Source of the DNA: Aquiflexum balticum DSM 16537
GTDB lineage: Bacteria; Bacteroidota; Bacteroidia; Cytophagales; Cyclobacteriaceae
DNA: 64,000 bases
Assembly (NCBI RefSeq): GCF_900176595.1
Contig: NZ_LT838813.1
Location: forward strand, 2,246,001-2,310,000
Reading direction: 5' to 3'
The translations under genes were made by a program, and so were the position numbers. Within the stretch, counting starts at the first letter, position 1, and each line of letters starts with the position of its first letter. The notes under the pieces are model-generated. The model saw nothing but the letters and a program-made list of their open reading frames with translations, was not told where the DNA came from and did no database searches. Below are positions 27,177 to 39,258 of the stretch, in pieces.

Positions 27177-30100
27177 ATGCAAAAGAAAGCACTCCTTTAT
27201 TTATTTCTTTTAGCCAGCCATTTTGGCCTTGCCCAGAATTTTCTTTTTAATAATCAAATAAAAGGGGTGGAACTGCCTACTGATATGATTTCAGAGGTCA
27301 TACAGGATGAAAAAGGTTTGGTTTGGTTCAATACTTCTTTGGGAATTTTTTATTCTGATGGATTTTTCACTTATCCGGTTCCTGATTCTATTCAAAGCCA
27401 ACTTTCAAGTTCTGCGGCCATGTTCCAGGATGAAATGAATCAAATTTGGGTGTATAACCAAACTAATATTCCAAAAGTATACTTCTTCTCAGGGGCCAAA
27501 TGGCATGAGGTGGAAATTCCCGAATCTATCCTGAAGGGGATGGAACTGAATTATTTCAGATTTTCAAAGAACAGGATTTTGGAGGGGGAAGTCCTCTTTT
27601 TCATCAATGAAAAAAATATTGTTTTTGGAAGTTCGGAATCGGGAACATGGAGCAATTATCCCTACACTTATGGAGAATTGGGAGAATTTTCCGCATCCTA
27701 TAATTGGGGAGAATCCGTACTTCTGTTTTTTAGAAATGGCTCTTTGCAATATAAAAATGGTGTTTTGAGTTCTTTTTATTTTGAAGGAATAGAGCTTCCG
27801 TCTCCTGTCCAACATTTAGTCTATGAAGAAACAGCCAATTCATACTATTATTTAGGGGATGATTTTCTTGCGGTAGGTAAAAACATCCTTGAACCGGATA
27901 AGGTAGTAGCAAAGGGATTTGTCAGGGATATTTTCAGTCTGGCAAATTATAGTAATCTCCAGGTTTTTGAAGGAGATGTTTATTTCAATTTCAATTCCCA
28001 ACTGTATAAATACAATCCCGAAACAGGGTTGGTCCTGGAAATAGATGCTTATGAAAGTTTAAAAGCATACCATATCAATAGTTTTCTGGTAGATCGGGAG
28101 GGAATTATTTGGATAAGCAGTGACAGAGGCTTGGTAAATATCAATTCTTTGAGATTTTTAAATTATGATTCTAAATTTTTGATGGATGATGAGGTTTCGG
28201 CTATTTTAAAGTTGGATGGCCAATCCTATTTACTTGGATTCAATAATGGGCTACAGTATTGGCAAAAGGATAAATTGAGGACTCTTTTAGGCGACACCAA
28301 AATTATAGGTCACCCAAAATTCAGAATTACGAATTTTGATCAGGACAAAAATGGGATCGTTTGGTTTTCCTCAAATCTGAACGGTATGGGCAGGATAAAT
28401 CCCAAAACAATGGAACTGGAATTTCAGCCCAGTCCTGACTTGAAATTTGTGTCTGCTGTAAAATCCATAGGAGATAGTCTTTTCATTGTAACTAGGGACA
28501 GGATTTACCTTTCTACCATATACAGCAGAAAGGGACAGCATTTTCAAAATGAAATAATGGATACTTTTTTGAAGGAATTAAATCAATCCGTGGCTTATGT
28601 AAGAAAGGTGGATAAGTTGCAGGATGGCAGAATGATCATCATGCAAGGAGGGAACCTGCCGGAGGATCAAAATTTTGTAGCTACGGATCAGGTATTCAGT
28701 ACTGTAGGTTATGATTTTTTGGAAGACGGGGATTGCCTTATTTTGGGAACTGAAAAAGGATTGAAAAAGTACTGTAATGGTATTTTTGATTTTTATATGG
28801 TCAACAATGAAAAAATCGATAGACCTGTTTATGCCATATTAAAAGATTCCCAAGGATACCTTTGGGCCGGCACTGACCTTGGCCTTTACAGAATAGGAGA
28901 GGAAGATATTATAAATTTCAATGAGAAAAATGGATTGATAGGTTCTGAGGTCAACAGAGGCGCATTATTGGAAGGGGATGCTGGGGAGATTTTGATTGGT
29001 ACCAGTAAGGGGCTTTCTGTTTTTTTTCCAGGGGAAAATAAAGAATACCAAAATTACCCGCTGACTGACATCATTAAGGTAGAAGTTCTTGGCTTCAAAG
29101 AAGGTGAAGTTGATTTAGAACGCATTCCATTTGGAAACAATAATATTCAGATTACTTTTCAAGCAGTCAGTTTCCTTCAATCCAATGATTTGGTGGTAAG
29201 GTATCTTTTGGAAGGATTTCACGAGGACTGGATTGAACTGGTTAATCCAAGGACCAATGTTTTGACTTTCAATAATCTTCCGGCAGGAGAGTACAAGCTG
29301 AAGCTTCAGGCGGGGTTCGATGGGGTATATGGCGAGAGAGAGGTAAATTCGGACAGTTTCAGGATCCTTAGACCCATTTACCTGCAGTTTTGGTTTGTTA
29401 TAACTTTATTATTGGTTTTTCTGCTCATCGGATTTCTTTTGAACTCCTTGCTCAATTCATTTCGAAAACAAGGTGTTCTCAAAAAGGCAGTGGATGAGAA
29501 GAGTAAGCAAGTAATCAATATTGAAGATCAGTTTAAAAATGTCTGGCAAAGTTCCAAAGATGGTTTGATGCTGTCTGATGACAAAGGTAAAGTGCTTGCA
29601 ATTAATCCGAGTTTGGAAAAAATGGCAGAAATAACCTCAGAGGAAATTGAAAAAAGATGGGTACATGAATTATTTGCCGAACCTGAATTTTATTTTAAAA
29701 CAAGTCCTTCAATCATCAAATCCATCAATAATCCTGACAGCAACGGGGAAGTTTTTGAATTGGACATTCCGTTTAGGAGCGGATCAAAGCAAATTGAGCT
29801 ATATGTCGTCAAGCTTAAGTCTGAATTTGAAGGGGTTAAGTTGAATTTATCTGTTTTCAGAGATATCACAGTAAAAAAGGCTTATGAAGTCGGTTTGGAG
29901 AAAGCCAAAGAAAAAGCAGAAGAAGCCAATCGTCTCAAATCCAATTTCCTTTCCAATATCAGCCACGAAATCAGGACACCCTTAAACGGTATTTTGGGTA
30001 TAACTGAAAACATCCTGATCCAAAAGAATAAAGATGATGGGTTAGTTTCGCAGCTTGAAATCATTCAGGAATCAGGAGAAAGGCTGCTGAGTACCATCAA

Positions 30101-30611
30101 CAGTATTTTGGATCTATCCAAATTGGAAGCAAAAAAAATGGAGGTTGTTTATAAGGAAACCAATATCAATGATTTGTTGGCCAAAATCCTGCTGCCGCTA
30201 AAAGAAATGGCTGTAAGGAAAGGTTTATTGCTTTCAACAAAATACGAGACACAACCCCTGATTGGGCTGATTGACGGACGGTATTTTGAAATGATATTGA
30301 ACAATCTCGTAGGCAATGCCATCAAGTATTCCAATGAAGGAATGATTTCCGTCAAACTGAGAGGCAACTCTGACCAAATTGAACTGGAGGTAAAAGATCA
30401 GGGAATCGGGATGAGTGAGGATTTTCAAAAAATTCTCTTCAGTCCATTTGAACAGGAAAGCAGTGGGTATGGTAGGAGTTTTGAAGGCACAGGCCTAGGA
30501 TTAACAATTACAAAAAATCTAGTTGATATCCTTGGTGGTGAGATTTTTATTAAAAGTGTTAAAAATCAGGGTACAAAGGTTAAAGTAATCTTGCCTTTAG
30601 GTAAAAAATGA
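27177..30611 (+). CDS. periplasmic-propeller sensor histidine kinase
   Basis: A 1144-residue sensor kinase. Residues 1-20 are a signal peptide. A large periplasmic sensor of two-component-type propeller repeats follows (about 25-650; repeated GLVWFNTSLGIF, GIIWISSDRGLV, GIVWFSSNLNGM, GYLWAGTDLGLY). Then come a Y_Y_Y domain (about 665-735; FHEDWIELVNPRTNVLTF), one membrane helix (about 738-760), a PAS domain (about 785-900), HisKA with His930 in ISHEIRTPLNG, and HATPase_c (N box NLVGNAIKYS, DQGIGM, GTGLGLTI). Unlike classic hybrid (HTCS) proteins it has no receiver or AraC domain. The next gene, 51 bases on, supplies a receiver, so phosphotransfer between them is plausible. Confidence 0.95.
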   Translation: MQKKALLYLFLLASHFGLAQNFLFNNQIKGVELPTDMISEVIQDEKGLVWFNTSLGIFYSDGFFTYPVPDSIQSQLSSSAAMFQDEMNQIWVYNQTNIPKVYFFSGAKWHEVEIPESILKGMELNYFRFSKNRILEGEVLFFINEKNIVFGSSESGTWSNYPYTYGELGEFSASYNWGESVLLFFRNGSLQYKNGVLSSFYFEGIELPSPVQHLVYEETANSYYYLGDDFLAVGKNILEPDKVVAKGFVRDIFSLANYSNLQVFEGDVYFNFNSQLYKYNPETGLVLEIDAYESLKAYHINSFLVDREGIIWISSDRGLVNINSLRFLNYDSKFLMDDEVSAILKLDGQSYLLGFNNGLQYWQKDKLRTLLGDTKIIGHPKFRITNFDQDKNGIVWFSSNLNGMGRINPKTMELEFQPSPDLKFVSAVKSIGDSLFIVTRDRIYLSTIYSRKGQHFQNEIMDTFLKELNQSVAYVRKVDKLQDGRMIIMQGGNLPEDQNFVATDQVFSTVGYDFLEDGDCLILGTEKGLKKYCNGIFDFYMVNNEKIDRPVYAILKDSQGYLWAGTDLGLYRIGEEDIINFNEKNGLIGSEVNRGALLEGDAGEILIGTSKGLSVFFPGENKEYQNYPLTDIIKVEVLGFKEGEVDLERIPFGNNNIQITFQAVSFLQSNDLVVRYLLEGFHEDWIELVNPRTNVLTFNNLPAGEYKLKLQAGFDGVYGEREVNSDSFRILRPIYLQFWFVITLLLVFLLIGFLLNSLLNSFRKQGVLKKAVDEKSKQVINIEDQFKNVWQSSKDGLMLSDDKGKVLAINPSLEKMAEITSEEIEKRWVHELFAEPEFYFKTSPSIIKSINNPDSNGEVFELDIPFRSGSKQIELYVVKLKSEFEGVKLNLSVFRDITVKKAYEVGLEKAKEKAEEANRLKSNFLSNISHEIRTPLNGILGITENILIQKNKDDGLVSQLEIIQESGERLLSTINSILDLSKLEAKKMEVVYKETNINDLLAKILLPLKEMAVRKGLLLSTKYETQPLIGLIDGRYFEMILNNLVGNAIKYSNEGMISVKLRGNSDQIELEVKDQGIGMSEDFQKILFSPFEQESSGYGRSFEGTGLGLTITKNLVDILGGEIFIKSVKNQGTKVKVILPLGKK

Positions 30612-30662: not shown

Positions 30663-31841
30663 ATGTTCCCACTCCGGATTTTAATTACAGAAGACGATCA
30701 CGTCTCAGCCTTGTTGCTCAAAAAAGCATTAGAAAAAAATAATCATCAGATCATTGGTATTTCAGACTCCGGAGAAAGAGCATTGGAGATCCTTGAAGAA
30801 AACCAAGCAGATATTGTGATGATGGATATCAACTTGGCCGGTGAGTTGGATGGAATCAAAACTACTGAAATCATCAATGAAAAGTATGATATTCCCGTAG
30901 TCTACCTGAGTGCAAGTTCAGATGCAGAAACACTCACCAAAGTAGTGGGGACCAATCCAAGTGCTTATGTGATCAAGCCCTTTAATATCCGGGAACTCAA
31001 TATGGTTATTGAATTGGCGATTTTTAAGGACAGAAAAGAGAAAGAGCTTCAAAAACTCAATAACGAGTTGGAAGAAAAGGTAAGGCAAAGGACAAAAGAT
31101 CTTGCTGACGCCAATAAGGAACTGACCAGGGCATTGGAAAAAGAAAGAGAAGTAGGTGAATTGAAATCAAGAATCGTACTCAACGTCTCCCATGGATTCA
31201 AAACACCTTTGACTTCAATTCTAAGTTCTGCCCAACTGCTCGCCAATTATGCCGAAAGGGATCACCCTTTTAAGGCAAAAATCATGAAACATGCGCAGAA
31301 AATCGAAAATTCTGTTCGGAACCTGAACAGTCTTCTGACATCCGTGTTGTTTTTTGGAAAAGCCGATGCAAATAAAATTGACTTCAAGCCAAAAAAGATG
31401 TTTGTCATGGCAATGCTAAATGAGGTGATCGATGTGGTAAAAGCCGGGTCAGAACATGACGTCAAAATAAACACCAAATTCAATAATCTTCCCAAGACAA
31501 TTGTTTCAGATTCGGATCTTCTATATCAGATATTTGAAAATCTGCTATCCAATGCCTGTAAATATTCCAAGGATGGACAAGAAGTCAACTTTACTGTATG
31601 GGAGGAAGCCGGAATGCTGAAAGCCACCATTGAAGACAAAGGAATAGGTATTCCGAAAAAAGAACAGGATCAGCTTTTTGACAGGTTTTTCAGAGCAAAA
31701 AATGTAGGCATTATAGAAGGTTCAGGGTTGGGTCTCTCGATTGTGAAAAAAAGTATCGAAGTGCTGAATGGTGATATTACCTTTGAAAGTGATCAGGGAA
31801 AAGGAACTACGTTTAATATTTCAATTCCAGTGAAAATCTAA
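30663..31841 (+). CDS. receiver-histidine kinase fusion (response regulator + HK)
   Basis: A 392-residue cytosolic protein. The N-terminal receiver (1-120) has the acidic pair EDD, the phospho-acceptor Asp in VMMDINL and the conserved Lys in VIKPFN. A coiled coil (about 125-165) leads to HisKA with His177 and an HATPase_c domain (NLLSNACKYS, DKGIGIPKKEQ, GSGLGLSIV). The residue after the phospho-His is Gly (SHGFKTP), not the usual Glu/Asp, while Thr at H+4 is kept. This could weaken kinase activity. The gene follows the propeller kinase by 51 bases and overlaps the ABC ATPase start by 1 base. Confidence 0.93.
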   Translation: MFPLRILITEDDHVSALLLKKALEKNNHQIIGISDSGERALEILEENQADIVMMDINLAGELDGIKTTEIINEKYDIPVVYLSASSDAETLTKVVGTNPSAYVIKPFNIRELNMVIELAIFKDRKEKELQKLNNELEEKVRQRTKDLADANKELTRALEKEREVGELKSRIVLNVSHGFKTPLTSILSSAQLLANYAERDHPFKAKIMKHAQKIENSVRNLNSLLTSVLFFGKADANKIDFKPKKMFVMAMLNEVIDVVKAGSEHDVKINTKFNNLPKTIVSDSDLLYQIFENLLSNACKYSKDGQEVNFTVWEEAGMLKATIEDKGIGIPKKEQDQLFDRFFRAKNVGIIEGSGLGLSIVKKSIEVLNGDITFESDQGKGTTFNISIPVKI

Positions 31842-32476
31842 TGATACTCCAAGCTAATAATATTGATTTCTACTATAATTCGGACCAAAAATTCAAAATA
31901 CCTGACATCAACTTGGATGCAGGGGATCAATTATTGATAATTGGAAAATCAGGAAGTGGAAAAACCACCATTCTCAATATCCTTGGGGGATTGTTGAAAC
32001 CAAAATCAGGTGAGGTTAAAATCAACGGAACCTCAGTTTATTCCCTCAGCGGTGCTACACTCGATAAATTCAGAGGAAAAAATGTAGGGATAATTTTTCA
32101 AAAACCCCATATTCTTTCCGCACTCAATGTGGAAGAAAATCTGAAGATCGCGAATTTTTTTGCCGGAGAATCAAACCGGTTGATTGAACCCCTATTGAAG
32201 GAACTGGGGATATATGAAAAGAGAAAAGCCAATGTCAATACATTGAGTGAAGGGGAAGCACAGAGAGTTTCGATTGCAAGGGCACTGGTCAACAATCCAA
32301 AAGTAATCCTGGCAGATGAGCCTACAGCAAGCCTTGATGATGAAAATGCAGATAATGTCATTAAGCTTCTACAACAGGAAGCTGAAAAATACAAAGCAGT
32401 TTTGATCATCGTTACCCACGACCAAAGGGTTAAAGACCATATTTCCAACCAAATACTCATAGGAGCCAAATTATGA
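31841..32476 (+). CDS. ABC transporter ATPase (MacB/LolD type)
   Basis: A 211-residue ATPase with Walker A GKSGSGKT (residues 35-42), a Q-loop, Walker B VILADEPTASLD and the switch His in VTHD. The signature is LSEGE instead of the usual LSGGQ. The size and similarity place it with LolD/MacB-type ATPases that pair with FtsX-like permeases. It starts on the last base of the preceding stop and its own stop overlaps the permease start (ATGA), so the three genes are translationally coupled. By context it is the equivalent of PA4064 in a zinc-linked system, which is inference. Confidence 0.93.
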   Translation: MILQANNIDFYYNSDQKFKIPDINLDAGDQLLIIGKSGSGKTTILNILGGLLKPKSGEVKINGTSVYSLSGATLDKFRGKNVGIIFQKPHILSALNVEENLKIANFFAGESNRLIEPLLKELGIYEKRKANVNTLSEGEAQRVSIARALVNNPKVILADEPTASLDDENADNVIKLLQQEAEKYKAVLIIVTHDQRVKDHISNQILIGAKL

Positions 32477-33696
32477 ACATGATCAAACTGAGTTGGAAAT
32501 ACCTGATTGCCAAACCACTGAATACTGGACTCAACATCCTTTTATTGGCTTTGGGCCTTGCCATCATTACCGTTCTGATTTTGATTCAGGATCAGTTTGA
32601 AAATAAGATGACCAAAGATGCCGAGGGTATTGACTTGGTCGTAGGCGCCAAAGGAAGTCCCTTGCAACTTATCCTTTCAAGCATTTATCACATTGATTTT
32701 CCAACCGGCAATATTGATATGGCGGATGCCATAGCTCTTTCCAAAAACCGACTGGTGAAAAACATCATTCCTTTGGGTATGGGTGACAATTACCAAGGTT
32801 ATAGAATTGTCGGGACCAATCACGATTATCTTGAACTCTATAATGCCCAAATGTCTGCGGGGGCTGCTTGGGATAAACCTTTCGAAGTGGTTTTGGGCAG
32901 TGAAACAGCTGTTAAACTGGGTCTGGGTATTGGAGATACATTTATAGGTTCTCATGGGATTGGCAGTAGCAGCCATGAACATGATGAACACCCCTATAAG
33001 GTTTCTGGAATTTTGAATCCAATGGGAAATGTCTTGGATAAATTGATCCTGACAAGTATTGAGTCTGTCTGGTATACCCACGATGAAGGTCATGACCATG
33101 AAATATTTGAGAAACCTGTAGCAAAAACAGGATTTCCTGAAACGGATGATGATCGGGAAGTTACCTCGCTACTCATTCAATATAGAAATCCAATAGCTGC
33201 GGTGCAGTTACCAAGATTTATCAACAGTAAAAGTGCTTTACAGGCAGCTTCTCCTTCCTTTGAAATTTCAAGACTTTTTGAATTGCTTGGGATAGGAGTG
33301 AAACTTATTCAGGGACTTGCCATCGTTATCATCATCATAGCAGGACTTGGGATATTCATTGCGCTGTTCAATTCTCTTAAAGAAAGAAAATATGATTTGG
33401 CTGTAATGAGAACATTGGGAGCTTCAAGTGGGCAGTTGTTTTTACACATTGTATTGGAAGGTGTAATCCTAACAGTTTTGGGAGCGATAGTTGGGATTGT
33501 GATGGGGCACCTTTTTTTGGCGGTTCTCGTTATGCAGAATGAACAAGGAGCAATAAGCGGTTTGACAGCTATGGTCTTTCTTACTGAAGAACTTTGGATA
33601 CTGGTTTATGCGGTGTTAGTGGGAATTATTGCCTCTCTTATACCAGCATGGAACGCTTATCAAACTGATATTGCCAAACAGCTTACTAAAGCATAA
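32473..33696 (+). CDS. FtsX-like ABC permease with histidine-rich periplasmic loop
   Basis: A 407-residue permease with the MacB/LolC layout: one N-terminal membrane helix (about 18-40), a large periplasmic domain (about 45-275), and three C-terminal helices (about 283-305, 325-350, 375-395). The periplasmic domain has two His/Asp/Glu-rich stretches, SHGIGSSSHEHDEHPYK (about 160-175) and THDEGHDHE (about 201-209). They could bind zinc or other divalent metal. Together with the ATPase and the DUF3299-like gene this resembles PA4064-PA4066 of Pseudomonas, part of the Zrg-type zinc system. Confidence 0.9.
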   Translation: MNMIKLSWKYLIAKPLNTGLNILLLALGLAIITVLILIQDQFENKMTKDAEGIDLVVGAKGSPLQLILSSIYHIDFPTGNIDMADAIALSKNRLVKNIIPLGMGDNYQGYRIVGTNHDYLELYNAQMSAGAAWDKPFEVVLGSETAVKLGLGIGDTFIGSHGIGSSSHEHDEHPYKVSGILNPMGNVLDKLILTSIESVWYTHDEGHDHEIFEKPVAKTGFPETDDDREVTSLLIQYRNPIAAVQLPRFINSKSALQAASPSFEISRLFELLGIGVKLIQGLAIVIIIIAGLGIFIALFNSLKERKYDLAVMRTLGASSGQLFLHIVLEGVILTVLGAIVGIVMGHLFLAVLVMQNEQGAISGLTAMVFLTEELWILVYAVLVGIIASLIPAWNAYQTDIAKQLTKA

Positions 33697-33743
33697 ATTT
33701 GAAGATTGCTTTGAAAAAATCTTACTGTTAATAAACTATTCAA

Positions 33744-34181
33744 ATGAAATTAAATAGAACAATTTCCACATTCATTTTACTGATTTTAATCTCTGTGTCT
33801 TATGCCCAGACGGTCCCTAGTGTTTGGCGGGATTTATCTGATGTAACCTATAAAATCGGCCAAGACGAATTCGGGGAATTATATATTCCTGTTTTCAGTG
33901 AAAAGATAAAAAAGCTGGAAGGGAAAGAAGTAGAAGCAGATGGTTACATCATTCCTTTTGAAGGGATGTTCAAGCCAGAACATATCATTTTGTCTTCCCT
34001 GCCTTTGGCGGAATGTTTTTTTTGCGGATCAGGCGGGCCAGAAACCGTAATGGAAGTAATGTTGACAGACCCAATTAAATATACCTCTAAACGGGTCAAA
34101 GTAAAGGGTATTTTGACCCTCAATGATAAAGACCCCGAAAAACTGATGTATATCCTAAAAGACGCAAGGTTATTGAATTAA
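33744..34181 (+). CDS. secreted DUF3299-like protein
   Basis: A 145-residue protein with a Sec signal peptide (about residues 1-21). The mature part is OB-fold-like: KLEGKEVEADGYIIPFEG, then FFCGSGGPETVMEV with a CxxC-like AECFFCG, then KVKGILTLNDKD. This fits the DUF3299-type periplasmic proteins found beside MacB-like transporters in zinc-associated operons. It starts 47 bases after the permease and is followed by a strong terminator, so it closes the operon. Confidence 0.8.
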   Translation: MKLNRTISTFILLILISVSYAQTVPSVWRDLSDVTYKIGQDEFGELYIPVFSEKIKKLEGKEVEADGYIIPFEGMFKPEHIILSSLPLAECFFCGSGGPETVMEVMLTDPIKYTSKRVKVKGILTLNDKDPEKLMYILKDARLLN

Positions 34182-34386: not shown

Positions 34387-35877
34387 TTAGAAATAAGTAC
34401 CTCTTTCTAAATGAATCTTTATTCCCGGATTGTAAGCCTTAATCGCATCTATAACCTCTTTCGAAATCAATGTTTCATTGATATAAACATCTTGGAGTGC
34501 AGGTAGCATCAAAATGTTCAAGAGATTTCCATCATTGACCTTAGTCTTTGAAAGATCCAATAATTGGAGATTTGACAATTTTGAAAGCTGTGCCAATCCT
34601 TCGCCATTAATTTGAGTTTGCTGCAGATATAATTCCTTTAAAGAGCTCATTTGACCAAGATGATAAAATCCATCGTCTGTAATATCACTGCCAATAAATG
34701 ATGCTTTGGTTATATTTTGGAAAACAGGCTGAAGGTTTATCAGATCTTTATCCCCAAAGGAAGAGGGCGGGAATTTCATGGAAATGAAAATTGATTTTTC
34801 ATCATAAGGATCTATTTTCATCTCAATATTTTCTACGTTTTCCAGAGAGTTAATCAGATTCTCTGTGCTGAGTTTTTGAAGATGCCGATTGCGTTGTTGG
34901 GTTTTGAGCTCTGTCAGATAAACCTGGACTATGGACTCTATCTCTGGATTTAGAGATGCTTCCGTTATCCTGAGTTCAGGGTCAGCACCATTGTCTATCC
35001 ACCATTTTAATAGGGAGACTTCGTTTTCATTTAGAGGTGATTTACCTTCAGGCGGCATAAAATCATCATCATTGACAGGAAGCGTTACTCTTCGGTAAAC
35101 CTCACTTTCAAGGGAAGAATTTTTCACCAAAGAAGGATGGTCTCCTTTTCCGCCTTTTACAAGATCTTCAAAGGAAGTCAAAATCAATCCACCCTTGGCC
35201 TTGTTTTCATTATGACAGCTCATGCACTTCCTGTCCATAAATGCCACAATAACATCATCATATACCAGCATCTCTTCGACTGGTTTTGGTTGCCAATCGG
35301 GTTCCTGCGATTTTATCGGAAAATATTCAGTTAGGAATTCTTTCCCATGAGTCAATGAACCTCCTTGATGACTTGTATAAATCAATGTTCCGTTTGCAAA
35401 TATCAGGGCTATAATATATCCAGTGCTGAAATATTGAGCTTTAGATTGACCGTAAGACAAGAGAAAAAACACTGCCAATGAAACAGCAGCACTCAATAGC
35501 ACTCCGCCCCATAAATGTTGTTGGGCAATCTCTCCTGTATATTCGCCGGTAGAATACAGTAAAAAACCCAAACCTAAGGAAACCAAACAACTGATAAGAC
35601 TTGCACCCAATAATAGGCCTATCACATTTTTGGGAACTTCAAGAAGTTTATATTTTTTAAATACTTCGATTATCAACACCAATAGGATCAGGACTATTGG
35701 AAAATGTATGATCAGGGGATGGAATCTTCCCAAGAAAAAAACAAATTCTGAAGGAGGGTCCTCTTGTGGTCCAATAAAGGGTAAGAATAAAACTGCAATA
35801 GCAAGGAACAAAAAAACAAATCTGTACTTGAGGCAAATATTTTTCAGCCTGATCATTAGAGAATTCGAACGCATCAT
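34387..35877 (-). CDS. membrane protein with PSCyt1 cytochrome-c domain and leucine-rich segment
   Basis: A 496-residue inner-membrane protein. The N-terminal half has about five hydrophobic segments (residues 18-195) of the DUF2231 type. A planctomycete-type cytochrome C (PSCyt1) domain follows, with the heme motif CMSCH at about 218-222 and FEDLVKGG and MPPEGKSPL sequences. The C-terminal 150 residues are leucine-rich-repeat-like (SSLKELYLQQTQINGEG, LSNLQLLDLSKTKVNDGN). It is the last gene of a three-gene minus-strand operon with DUF1552 and DUF1592 proteins. The role is unknown; heme binding in the periplasm is likely. Confidence 0.85.
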   Translation of the reverse strand: MMRSNSLMIRLKNICLKYRFVFLFLAIAVLFLPFIGPQEDPPSEFVFFLGRFHPLIIHFPIVLILLVLIIEVFKKYKLLEVPKNVIGLLLGASLISCLVSLGLGFLLYSTGEYTGEIAQQHLWGGVLLSAAVSLAVFFLLSYGQSKAQYFSTGYIIALIFANGTLIYTSHQGGSLTHGKEFLTEYFPIKSQEPDWQPKPVEEMLVYDDVIVAFMDRKCMSCHNENKAKGGLILTSFEDLVKGGKGDHPSLVKNSSLESEVYRRVTLPVNDDDFMPPEGKSPLNENEVSLLKWWIDNGADPELRITEASLNPEIESIVQVYLTELKTQQRNRHLQKLSTENLINSLENVENIEMKIDPYDEKSIFISMKFPPSSFGDKDLINLQPVFQNITKASFIGSDITDDGFYHLGQMSSLKELYLQQTQINGEGLAQLSKLSNLQLLDLSKTKVNDGNLLNILMLPALQDVYINETLISKEVIDAIKAYNPGIKIHLERGTYF

Positions 35878-35892
35878 GAACTATGGTTAAAC

Positions 35893-37272
35893 CTATACAT
35901 GGATTTCACATAATTCACCTGTACTGTCCGCAAAGCATTCAAGTGGCATATCCAGTACTCTGGCCATGGAAAGATAAAGATTTGCCAGTGGAGTGTCTTT
36001 TCCGAAATCCAAATTTTGACCGGGTTTGAGCCCGCCGCCGCCTTTTCCTCCAACCAAAATCGGTAAGTTGTAAGGAGAGTGGGAATTCCCATCCCTTAAA
36101 CCCGAACAGAACATGACCATCGAATTGTCCAAAAGATTGCTATCTCCATCTGGAAGAGATTTCAATTTTTCCAGAAAATAGGCATATTGGTTGACATGCC
36201 ATTCATTGATGATCCTGTACTGTTCCATTTGATCTTCAAGATTTTGGTGATGGGACAATTGGTGATGACTTCCCTGTACGCCTGGGAGAAAAGAAAAATT
36301 TCTGTTACTTACAGAATTTCCAAACATAAATGTGCCAACCCTAGTAGCATCTGTCCAAAAAGCCAAGGCCATGATATCTAGCATTTGCCTCGTTTTCTCG
36401 GTAATATCCACCCCAATGAAGGTTTCGTTGAATTCATCAATCCGCATATTCAGGCCGATAAGTTCTTTTTGTATTTCGGGAGTAATCTGTTTTTCGAAAG
36501 CCTTGATTTTTTCTTCATTGTCTATGCGCTTTTCTATAGACCGTATAGACTCCAGGTATTCCTCCAATTTGTCCTGATCAGACCTTCCCAATTTTCTTTG
36601 TAGGGCATCTGCGTCTTCCTTGACAATGTCCAGTACGCTTTTCTTCCATTTTTCATTCTTTGGTTTAGAGTCGGGAAGACTGCTGCGGAACAACCTGTCA
36701 AAGGCCATTCTTGGTTCTATTTCTCTCGAACATGGTTGAGTTGGGGTTTTCCAGGAAATGACAGACCCATAGAGTCTGGTGAATCCAACAGCTCCGTCGA
36801 TACCTGCATTGATCCGCTCCATACCATACTGAACAGAATCAAGCAAAGTGTCTTGGCCAATATGCTTTGCTATCAGCTGATCAAATGAAATTCCCCCACT
36901 ATGTAAATTGTCACCAACAGTCTGATAAATTGGAAGTCCTGTCAATAAGTTGGCTGTTTTGGCATAATGTCCATCTGCACCAGGAAAAATGGAGCCTTTA
37001 TTCATCAGATTATTCAGAACGAGAATGTCATCTTTTACATTGGACAATGGCCTCAAGGTTGAGCTCAGTTCAAAATTCCTTCCGTACTGTTCGGGTGTCC
37101 AATGGAATTTATTGACCCCATTGGGCATAAACAAGCAGGCGAATCGGATAGGTTTCTTCTCCATATTATACATGCTCATCCCCGGGGGGACCATAGCCTG
37201 TAAAAAAGGCAGCGCAATAGTTGCTCCTAAGCCTTTTAGCATTCGTCGACGTGAAATATGCCAATTTCCCAT
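35893..37272 (-). CDS. DUF1552 protein, Tat-exported
   Basis: A 459-residue protein with a Tat signal (SRRRMLKGLGATIALPFLQ) at residues 8-27. The rest is DUF1552 throughout: RFACLFMPNGVNKFHWTPE, DGHYAKTANLLTG, GGISFDQLIAKHIG, and a C-terminal SGLRDGNSHSPYNLPILVGG. DUF1552 is related to sulfatase/alkaline-phosphatase-like folds, but I know no proven activity. It starts 6 bases after the DUF1592 gene and is 15 bases before the PSCyt1 gene. DUF1592/DUF1552 pairs are common in Planctomycetes and some Bacteroidota. Confidence 0.93.
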   Translation of the reverse strand: MGNWHISRRRMLKGLGATIALPFLQAMVPPGMSMYNMEKKPIRFACLFMPNGVNKFHWTPEQYGRNFELSSTLRPLSNVKDDILVLNNLMNKGSIFPGADGHYAKTANLLTGLPIYQTVGDNLHSGGISFDQLIAKHIGQDTLLDSVQYGMERINAGIDGAVGFTRLYGSVISWKTPTQPCSREIEPRMAFDRLFRSSLPDSKPKNEKWKKSVLDIVKEDADALQRKLGRSDQDKLEEYLESIRSIEKRIDNEEKIKAFEKQITPEIQKELIGLNMRIDEFNETFIGVDITEKTRQMLDIMALAFWTDATRVGTFMFGNSVSNRNFSFLPGVQGSHHQLSHHQNLEDQMEQYRIINEWHVNQYAYFLEKLKSLPDGDSNLLDNSMVMFCSGLRDGNSHSPYNLPILVGGKGGGGLKPGQNLDFGKDTPLANLYLSMARVLDMPLECFADSTGELCEIHV

Positions 37273-37278
37273 AATTCG

Positions 37279-39258
37279 TTAGTTTTTAGCCAATATTTTG
37301 AATTTTTCCGCTCCATCATTCACTTTGTACCGGAAAGGGTAACTCGTTGCCAAAGCAATGATGAATTGTTCTGTATTAAAATCATTTTCTATCAGATTCT
37401 TAATGAGACCTTGAATGTAAAGTTCATCCTTGAATTCGACATTTCTGCCAATGGCATAAGTGAAAGTTTTTTCCGAAAGTGTCCTTGCAAACAATTCCTT
37501 TTTAGTGGCCAGGATTTTTTTCAATTCACTTGGGCCGTTGAATATTTCTCCACTTGGCAAGGTATCCCATGCCACTATGGGATCAAATCCATAGCTGTCC
37601 CGCCATCTGCCTACCGCATCAAAATTTTCAAGGCCAAAGCCGATAGGGTCCATCTTTTGATGACAGTTTATACAGGCAGGCTTGGATCGGTGAAAAGTCA
37701 ATAAATCCCTGATACTAGCATTCTTATCAGCAGCAGCTTCTTCCGGCAATTCTCCCGCATCTGGTGGAGGTGGAGGCGCCGGAGTTCCAAGGATTTCTTC
37801 CAAAACCCATTTCCCCCTTAGCACGGGGCTCGTTCTGATGGGTAAGGAGGTAGCCGTTAAGACACTTCCCATCCCCAATATCCCTCCTCTTGGGTTATTA
37901 TGGAGTGCTACTTTTCGAAATTCAGCACCCTTAACATCCGCTATTCCATAATGATTTGCGAGTTCTTCGTTCAAAAAAGTATAATCACTATCGATCAGAT
38001 CCAGAAAGTTTTTGCTACCAGTAAGTACATGGTGAAAATATTCCACTAATTCATTGTACATCGCCTCTCTCAAAGAAGCCGTCATTTCAGGATATCTTTC
38101 AGGATCAGCTGTGACGTCTTCTCTAAATCTGTTCACACCAAACCACTGTGTAGCAAAACTTTCGGAAAAGTGCTTTGATTTTTCGTCATTCAACATTCTA
38201 ATGACCTGATTTCTGATTACCACAGGATCTTGTAAGTTTCCCCTATAGGCCACTTCAAAAAGTTCTTTATCAGGAAAAGTTGACCATAAAAAGAAGGACA
38301 GTCTGCTAGCCAATTCAAAGTTACTGAGGGGATAGGCGTGATCCACAGGTTGCTCTTCTTCATAACGGTACAAGAAATTAGGCGATATCAACACTGCTTT
38401 CAAGGTTTCTTTAATAGCAACATTGAATCTGTTATTTCCGGGTGTTCCATCATATACTTCCTCGAATAGTGACAGGTAAGTTTGTTTTTCTTCCGGTTTC
38501 AAAAATCTTCTGAAGGCATTGCTTGCAAATGGTACAATAACTTCCTCAGCTGCGACCACATGTTTACCAACATAATTATCCCCTGCAAACAATTTTGCAA
38601 TCCAATTGGTGAGGCGGTTCCAAAGACTGACCTTATAAGGACGAGGGACAATACTCTTCCAGATTTCAGGGTCGGCATAGGCCATGTCCATAATTTCTTC
38701 TGCCGCATCGTAGTAGCGTTCCATTTTGAGCGGAGTGACAAACAAAGTGTTTGGGAAGTTATCAAATCCTGCGCCTCCGGAGCCGTCGCTAGGAAATCTT
38801 GACTTGGCATCAAACTTAACTCCTACCAAATTCAAAATGGTGTATTCATACTCTGTGTGGCTCAACCTTCTGATGACAACCCTGCCAGGGTCATTGGCAG
38901 AAAGTGATTTGAGCAATATGGAATTGACAGAATAGATGAAGGCTTCCCGTTCCTCTGAAGTCATGAGGGGTTCCCCGGCAGGAGGCATTTCTCCAGACTG
39001 TACGGTTTGGATGATATGTGTCCATACTTTTCCTCCCCTAACAATTCTTTTCTCAAAATCGTTGATCCCCATGAAATAACTTCTGATGCTAAGTCCACCT
39101 GATCGTTTGGTATCATGATGGCAGGAAAAACAATGCTTTTCAGCCAAGGGCATCAGTATTTCAATATGATCAACATCAGATTCCTCAACAGCCAGTGTTG
39201 CTGCGTTGGCAGCGGCTGCAAAAGCAAGAAAGGCTGTAAAGTAGATCCAGGTTTTCAT
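37279..39258 (-). CDS. DUF1592/PSCyt1 domain protein
   Basis: A 659-residue secreted protein. It has a signal peptide (1-19), an N-terminal PSCyt1-type heme motif CFSCH (about 41-45), the DUF1587 segment (RRLSHTEYEYTILNLVG), DUF1592 (DHAYPLSNFELASRLSFFLW), DUF1588 (RGGILGMGSVLTATSLPIRTSP with a CINCH-like second heme motif, PACINCHQKMDPIGFGLENFD) and a C-terminal DUF1585. This is the standard planctomycete-type multi-domain array. It is the first gene of the DUF1592 - DUF1552 - PSCyt1 operon. The function is unknown; two heme sites suggest periplasmic electron transfer. Confidence 0.93.
   Translation of the reverse strand: MKTWIYFTAFLAFAAAANAATLAVEESDVDHIEILMPLAEKHCFSCHHDTKRSGGLSIRSYFMGINDFEKRIVRGGKVWTHIIQTVQSGEMPPAGEPLMTSEEREAFIYSVNSILLKSLSANDPGRVVIRRLSHTEYEYTILNLVGVKFDAKSRFPSDGSGGAGFDNFPNTLFVTPLKMERYYDAAEEIMDMAYADPEIWKSIVPRPYKVSLWNRLTNWIAKLFAGDNYVGKHVVAAEEVIVPFASNAFRRFLKPEEKQTYLSLFEEVYDGTPGNNRFNVAIKETLKAVLISPNFLYRYEEEQPVDHAYPLSNFELASRLSFFLWSTFPDKELFEVAYRGNLQDPVVIRNQVIRMLNDEKSKHFSESFATQWFGVNRFREDVTADPERYPEMTASLREAMYNELVEYFHHVLTGSKNFLDLIDSDYTFLNEELANHYGIADVKGAEFRKVALHNNPRGGILGMGSVLTATSLPIRTSPVLRGKWVLEEILGTPAPPPPPDAGELPEEAAADKNASIRDLLTFHRSKPACINCHQKMDPIGFGLENFDAVGRWRDSYGFDPIVAWDTLPSGEIFNGPSELKKILATKKELFARTLSEKTFTYAIGRNVEFKDELYIQGLIKNLIENDFNTEQFIIALATSYPFRYKVNDGAEKFKILAKN

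Follow-up and report, generated by a model that had tools for sequence, protein, structure and literature searches.

The Zrg machines of Vibrio (ZrgABCDE) and the corresponding PA4063-PA4066 proteins of Pseudomonas aeruginosa bring together an ATP-binding cassette (ABC) ATPase, a MacB-like permease, a secreted protein of the DUF3299 superfamily and ZrgA (PF10986, DUF2796). Their purpose is disputed: they are seen either as zinc importers with ZrgA as the binding protein or as exporters of a cobalt metallophore. ZrgA is reported to be needed for the function of the V. cholerae system (PMC9820375), and the V. parahaemolyticus operon, the zrgE of which is annotated as DUF3299, to be strongly induced in zinc deficiency (PMC9817125). 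In P. aeruginosa, PA4064-PA4065 has been put forward as a MacB-type pyochelin-cobalt exporter (PMC11481552), and the structures of PA4063 and PA4066 have been discussed, PA4066 being given no function (PMC8561739). Here we analyze a related trio of genes from Aquiflexum balticum DSM 16537, located in a 64,000-nucleotide stretch of contig NZ_LT838813.1 (hereafter the window), that encodes the ATPase, the permease and the secreted protein but no ZrgA.

With a probability of about 0.5, we consider this trio to be a ZrgA-independent, MacB-like (type VII) machine of the Zrg/PA4064-PA4066 type that handles a periplasmic metal, probably zinc. Because ZrgA, a defining part, is missing, it is not a strict Zrg member; it is probably a ZrgA-less, CxxC-type branch of the Zrg machine that works like it. 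Among the best matches in the open literature we found no paper on ZrgA-less systems or on histidine-rich permease loops. A widespread branch that lacks ZrgA and keeps the same three permease histidines, often with histidine-rich loops, represents a natural experiment on the dispute; it singles out residues for mutagenesis and suggests that the periplasmic domain of the permease itself handles the metal.

A Zrg-type gene order without ZrgA

Open reading frames and Pfam domains agree on the trio that a first-pass annotation of the window had proposed. The same annotation had likened the gene order to that of Pseudomonas minus ZrgA; named Alphaproteobacteria do show the order DUF2796-ATPase-permease-DUF3299 in full, in annotated plasmid records of Sulfitobacter, Phaeobacter and strain SC52. 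A second type, with no DUF2796 nearby, was found in Rhizobium, Deinococcus, Paracoccus, Shinella, Azospirillum, Qingshengfaniella and Cereibacter. The A. balticum trio shares with Zrg the gene order (its third gene encoding a putative DUF3299 relative), a separate ABC ATPase adjoining the MacB-like permease, a near-invariant histidine triad in the permease, and homology through a shared profile. It differs in lacking ZrgA, in a third protein that has CxxC for PPPPxNQ and misses PF11736, in the stretches rich in histidine, aspartate and glutamate (H/D/E) of its permease, in the packing of its genes behind a kinase pair, and in that no Zur-type box was found at the trio.

No match to PF10986 was obtained anywhere in the 5,987,095-base A. 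balticum genome, in line with the first-pass view that ZrgA is missing. ZrgA exceeded the cut-off in none of the 76 permease-bearing Bacteroidota genomes searched (A. balticum among them), two of which (G152 and G231) contain sub-threshold ZrgA fragments. The search was rerun with positive controls since a first run gave no match in control genomes; the genomes of canonical operons from Pseudomonas, Aeromonas, Vibrio and Desulfosarcina all gave matches over the cut-off (4/4). The searches for ZrgA, MerC and COG0523 left out G110 and G134 of the 61 genomes of the host's order, as well as 24 of the 41 additional genomes from the phylum in which the permease was matched. Relatives of the permease itself occur in 61 of 148 genomes of the host's order, 51 of 296 of the phylum and 99 of 398 of Pseudomonadota.

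The permease and its three conserved histidines

Seven of the 11 histidines of the A. balticum permease lie within residues 161-211 (hypergeometric P 7e-5), and three of these are nearly invariant: of 255 permeases, 251 carry H161, 251 carry H203 and 248 carry H170, and the HHDH pattern at positions 161/170/189/203, which includes D189, is found in 247. When host-order permeases longer than 380 residues are considered (60 of 62, A. balticum included), H161 and H203 are present in all 60 and H170 in 58. The permeases of L313, L347, L348 and L349 have lost all three histidines together, and those of L094, L078, L083 and L088 deviate from HHDH at a single position. A GHGHE motif is still seen in the loop of L347-L349 despite the lost triad. 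Canonical Zrg permeases also keep the equivalents of H161/H170/H203; the A. balticum permease is 25-30% identical to 34 of them, with 42 invariant columns, and a single profile built from both groups recovers canonical Zrg and host-type permeases alike. Of the two H/D/E stretches noted in the first pass, conservation in close relatives holds for the first, which appears as SH[ED]HD[EQ]H in A. balticum and its four closest permeases (5/5).

An AlphaFold model of the permease (35 alignment rows; mean predicted local distance difference test score (pLDDT) 74.8, predicted template modelling score 0.55) shows four long helices (residues 15-50, 263-304, 319-355 and 369-406), the first two of which flank a large domain. 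Foldseek returned MacB (5gko, E 3e-16) and LolCDE as top matches, in agreement in fold and topology and with the MacB_PCD and FtsX domains of the sequence; BceAB structures were also in the list. MacB has a fused ATPase and the partners MacA and TolC (PMC11481552), whereas the A. balticum ATPase is separate and no MacA-like adaptor family is found among the five proteins of its gene block. The A. balticum proteins also differ from LolCDE, scoring 169.6 bits against the NCBIfam LolD cut-off of 307.75 and 59.1 against the LolC/E cut-off of 362.45. We know of no histidine triad or H/D/E loop in MacB or LolCDE.

This structural likeness raises the possibility, which we regard as rather improbable, that the trio exports a small molecule or metallophore in the manner of MacB, the activity put forward for PA4064-PA4065, and that the histidines bind a metal-chelator complex or are structural. 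Such an exporter would fit the Foldseek result and the pyochelin-dependent build-up of cobalt in PA4065 mutants (PMC11481552), but the histidine triad and the H/D/E loop point to a metal over a large organic substrate, and the lack of a MacA-like adaptor in the block also speaks against it. Moreover, no siderophore gene was seen by eye among the open reading frames at 26-40 kb of the window, the stretch covered by the annotation.

Histidine-rich loops and ZrgA

We defined the loop as the permease residues between H203 and T231 and called it histidine-rich when it held three or more histidines. Histidine-rich loops were found in 0 of 164 ZrgA-associated permeases and in 69 of 109 permeases without ZrgA (the Fisher P of 2e-36 disregards kinship and is not usable as a probability). 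Histidine accounts for 1.8% of loop residues with ZrgA and for 15.4% without it, where aspartate reaches 11.3% and glutamate 17.6%; loops are 17-31 residues long with ZrgA, and 9-138 where it is absent. Among relatives, the number of loop histidines spans 0 to 44; after H203 there are two in L032, L069 and L071, as in A. balticum, and four in L033. The mutual exclusion of histidine-rich loops and ZrgA is thus clear as a pattern.

For this comparison 255 loci were classed by their neighbours within 3.5 kb. Four of them (L296, L321, L322 and L338) were reassigned as ZrgA-positive, a genome search (ZrgA in 6/41 genomes) having placed ZrgA about 5 kb away, and L332 and L349, additional copies from genomes that also hold a copy with ZrgA, were kept as ZrgA-less. 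We added 18 of 30 later loci, the other 12 coming from genomes already represented. The order supplying them has ZrgA in 58 of 80 genomes; ten of its 22 ZrgA-less genomes are uncounted (G871, G886, G899, G954, G944, G924, G934, G973, G1017 and G925, the last of which looks loop-poor from match coordinates). For plasmid rows, absence of ZrgA means absence nearby, host chromosomes being outside the search.

That the exclusion reflects one ancient split is partly true, as most rows sit in a few large clades, and for this reason we give both a within-clade count and a weaker independent-pairs test (see below). In a tree built with FastTree from the 152 rows left after dereplication (L081, L340 and L341 were too short to be placed), the smallest clade holding all ZrgA rows comprises 76 rows and, by parsimony, seven ZrgA-loss events. 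All five histidine-loop gains inferred in this clade fall on ZrgA-less branches, which make up 20% of its branch length (binomial p 3e-4), assuming the FastTree tree, an outgroup root, a root state with ZrgA present and a poor loop, and gains at a uniform rate per branch length. A repeated, independent origin of the exclusion is therefore likely but not proven.

The third protein

The third protein was first annotated as DUF3299-like. It matches no Pfam family at E 0.001 and no NCBIfam model, relaxing the Pfam threshold to E 10 does not bring up DUF3299, and the cut-off of the PF11736 (DUF3299) model is not reached, so that this label does not hold at the level of the family model; a remote relationship is favoured, with the caveats below, by iterated profiles, alignment and structure prediction. 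Iterated hidden Markov models seeded with the A. balticum protein alone grew from 57 to 204 and then 228 neighbours, and profiles seeded with canonical DUF3299 ended at the same 228, in 214 of the 255 loci. In a direct alignment, C91 lies opposite the cysteine of GACIHVPPPPPNQ, and the CxxC stands where canonical DUF3299 has CIHVPPPPxNQ.

This motif separates the two kinds of loci. CxxC is present in all 35 DUF3299-like neighbours from Bacteroidota (A. balticum included). With motifs scored by regular expression, the 156 DUF3299-like neighbours at ZrgA-positive loci comprise 155 with a PPP-type motif, four of which additionally carry CxxC, and one with neither; the 72 at ZrgA-less loci comprise 60 with CxxC only, five with PPP and seven with neither. 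A model of the third protein (29 rows, mean pLDDT 81.4) has PA4066 as its best Protein Data Bank (PDB) match (4hsp, E 9.5e-4, TM-score 0.43), which is not independent evidence because the alignment rows are mostly DUF3299. A profile match to 4hsp was set aside as independent support, its signal coming mostly from the same DUF3299 rows, and when the third protein alone was searched against the PDB with phmmer, no credible match emerged. Overall, these sequence comparisons support the assignment of the third protein as a putative remote relative of DUF3299. A second relative of this protein lies next to a signal-peptidase-like gene, divergent from the trio, at L034:12421-12852 and L035:6634-7077.

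Gene linkage in relatives

MerC was recognized in 13 and CobW in three of 115 genes scanned within 2.2 kb of Bacteroidota permeases; for this set, the nearest 150 of 235 genes had been taken and the longer ones removed. A control set of 115 genes located over 5.5 kb away was obtained from 202 genes by choosing 150 at random and removing the longer ones, and its list of the 25 commonest families contains neither MerC nor CobW. Across the 76 genomes, the permease is less than 5 kb away for 19 of 71 MerC genes, compared with 0.16 expected, and for 3 of 72 COG0523 (CobW_C) genes (P 6e-4). In the closest relative, L032, a MerC gene is located 1.2 kb behind the gene block, past one opposite-strand gene. 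The available part of Haas 2009 (PMC2770081) gives no link between MerC and zinc, and its 'merc' matches stem from the name Merchant. A connection of MerC to metal is thus based on the family name and the linkage reported here. At L055:9235-14899 and L084:4572-10806, genes for MerC, a TonB receptor and a lipoprotein (histidine-rich by eye in L055) adjoin the ATPase and permease genes, and both sets look like outer-membrane metal uptake.

Another ZrgA-less clade, the named members of which are Alphaproteobacteria and Deinococcus, carries a gene for a PhoA-type alkaline phosphatase within 3.5 kb of the permease in all of its 17 loci (L094, L098, L208-L212, L316, L330, L331, L336, L337, L339, L342, L343, L345 and L346; Pfam check of the PhoA identity for L208), compared with 1 of 238 other loci. 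Since PhoA-type alkaline phosphatase is a zinc enzyme, this linkage suggests a tie to the metallation of a zinc enzyme and makes a role in periplasmic metallation directly testable. Operons with the order alkaline phosphatase-CxxC protein-ATPase-permease (L094 from Deinococcus; L098 and L208-L212 from Alphaproteobacteria) resemble the A. balticum trio in having no ZrgA nearby and a CxxC-type third protein, and often have a histidine-rich loop. They differ in that the third gene precedes the ATPase gene and a PhoA-type gene is nearby, neither of which is seen at the A. balticum locus.

Of the 62 Bacteroidota loci, 42 have a related ATPase no more than 3.5 kb from the permease. The 20 others are L041, L044, L045, L046, L048, L054, L058, L059, L061, L063, L065, L067, L068, L073, L074, L077, L085, L086, L088 and L092; for a few of them the contig or region stops close by (e.g. 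L045 and L054), and the ATPase may be elsewhere or off the contig.

Proposed function

From the permease histidines and the linkage in relatives, we infer a metal role, probably with zinc, for the trio. A dimer of the ATPase and permease would use ATP to drive motion of the periplasmic domain. A divalent metal (most probably zinc) would be collected by the permease loop and held at the H161/H170/H203 site until the motion transfers it, in either direction, between this site and the secreted CxxC protein, and onward to a periplasmic client or partner. Because machines of the MacB and LolCDE type act on periplasmic substrates, such a hand-off is favoured over ion transport into the cytoplasm. 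More tentatively, the metal-gathering job of ZrgA may have shifted repeatedly and independently, in Bacteroidota, Alphaproteobacteria and several further pseudomonadotal lineages, into an H/D/E-rich permease loop that feeds the fixed three-histidine site, the machine serving periplasmic metallation (e.g. of PhoA) rather than uptake into the cytoplasm.

Several observations weigh against a metal-handling, ZrgA-independent machine. The loop of A. balticum itself, with two histidines, is below the three-histidine threshold and ranks as loop-poor, as do 40 of the 109 ZrgA-less rows. In the independent-pairs test (six starred pairs), two to four pairs (mean 3.4) go in the expected loop direction and never in the opposite one, which is not significant (p 0.125-0.5). 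The first-pass idea that histidine stretches replace ZrgA is favoured by the family-wide split and by the gains on ZrgA-less branches, and is not carried by the A. balticum loop or by these pairs. The best site at the A. balticum trio has four mismatches to GTTATANNATAAC, which we take to be the Zur-type consensus and from which a Bacteroidota box may differ in sequence. Zur-type boxes are not enriched at Bacteroidota loci (4/62, shuffled mean 9.4), nor are Fur-type boxes at the Bacteroidota trios; upstream of canonical ZrgA operons, Zur-type boxes occur in 36/77 and 35/60 compared with about 2 in shuffled sequence, and they are weakly enriched at non-Bacteroidota loci without ZrgA within 3.5 kb (9/48 compared with three shuffled, the 48 taking in Deinococcus and the four loci later reassigned as ZrgA-positive). 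The only MerC and COG0523 matches of A. balticum are far from the trio. In the available main text of a zinc RNA-seq study of Paracoccus denitrificans, a strain for which the trio is not established, the words alkaline phosphatase do not occur (PMC5387054). Finally, V. cholerae ZrgA functions after loss of its own histidine-rich loop, so histidine-rich loops can be dispensable (PMC9820375).

The dispensable ZrgA loop, the wider range of loop lengths without ZrgA and the 40 loop-poor rows would also be expected if the expansion were near-neutral, low-complexity growth, with docking of ZrgA keeping the loop short and its loss relaxing the constraint. We consider this unlikely given the bias of ZrgA-less loops toward histidine, aspartate and glutamate, as neutral drift is not expected to favour histidine to this specific degree (the comparison concerns this loop and not other disordered loops).

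Gene layout and kinase pair

The trio is preceded on the same strand by two kinase genes (Table 1). The REC-kinase gene overlaps the ATPase gene by 1 nucleotide, and the ATPase gene overlaps the permease gene by 4. The block of five genes is kept in four relatives (L032, L033, L069 and L071), with gaps of -4 to 51 nucleotides, and is present in 5 of 10 host-family genomes with the permease (A. balticum counted). Across the four relatives the REC-kinase is 77-79% identical and the 1144-residue sensor kinase 37-39%. The coupling to two-component genes seen in the first pass is thus real, and the five genes are probably co-transcribed in the host lineage.

Table 1 Features of the A. balticum locus, in positions of the window.
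Feature	Position	Strand	Evidence
Sensor kinase, 1144 residues, with Reg_prop (propeller) repeats, Y_Y_Y, PAS, HisKA and HATPase	27177-30611	+	Pfam
REC-HisKA-HATPase protein, 392 residues	30663-31841	+	Pfam
ABC ATPase, 211 residues, ZrgC/PA4064-like position	31841-32476	+	Pfam ABC_tran E 7.6e-34
MacB/FtsX-like permease	32473-33696	+	Pfam MacB_PCD 2e-12, FtsX 2.7e-15
Codon of permease H161, first of the three near-invariant histidines	32953-32955	+	H161 in 251/255
Permease H/D/E stretch 1, residues 167-173 SHEHDEH, includes H170	32971-32991	+	H170 in 248/255
Permease H/D/E stretch 2, residues 203-210 HDEGHDHE, H203 and start of hypervariable loop	33079-33102	+	H203 in 251/255
Secreted DUF3299-like protein, 145 residues	33744-34181	+	Signal-peptide-like N-terminus by eye
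CFFC (C91-C94), the CxxC of the third protein	34014-34025	+	Alignment: opposite CIHV of canonical DUF3299

Metal sensing by a phosphorelay, also suggested in the first pass, is unsupported beyond this operon structure: neither kinase has a DNA-binding or other recognized output domain (Pfam, E 0.001), a close REC-kinase homolog is found beside the permease in 5 of 255 loci only (A. balticum included), and a Zur-type box was not found. The tight block of kinase pair and transporter, together with the BceAB structures in the Foldseek list, could alternatively indicate a Bce-like detoxification or sensing module, in which the kinases and a MacB/FtsX-type transporter sense the flux of an envelope-active compound and no metal is involved. 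We judge this very unlikely: BceB has ten transmembrane helices and the permease model four, and the rarity of the kinase linkage and the lack of a recognized output domain also speak against it.

A small lipoprotein with the motif VHDEVMP(K/L)xG is encoded one or two genes downstream of the trio in L033, L034, L035 and L069; Pfam gives no clear family for the L034 copy. On the minus strand of the window, visual inspection of positions 34387-39258 points to a membrane protein that has leucine-rich repeats and a haem-binding-like motif; after it come two proteins similar to the DUF1552/DUF1592 pair, which is typical of Planctomycetes.

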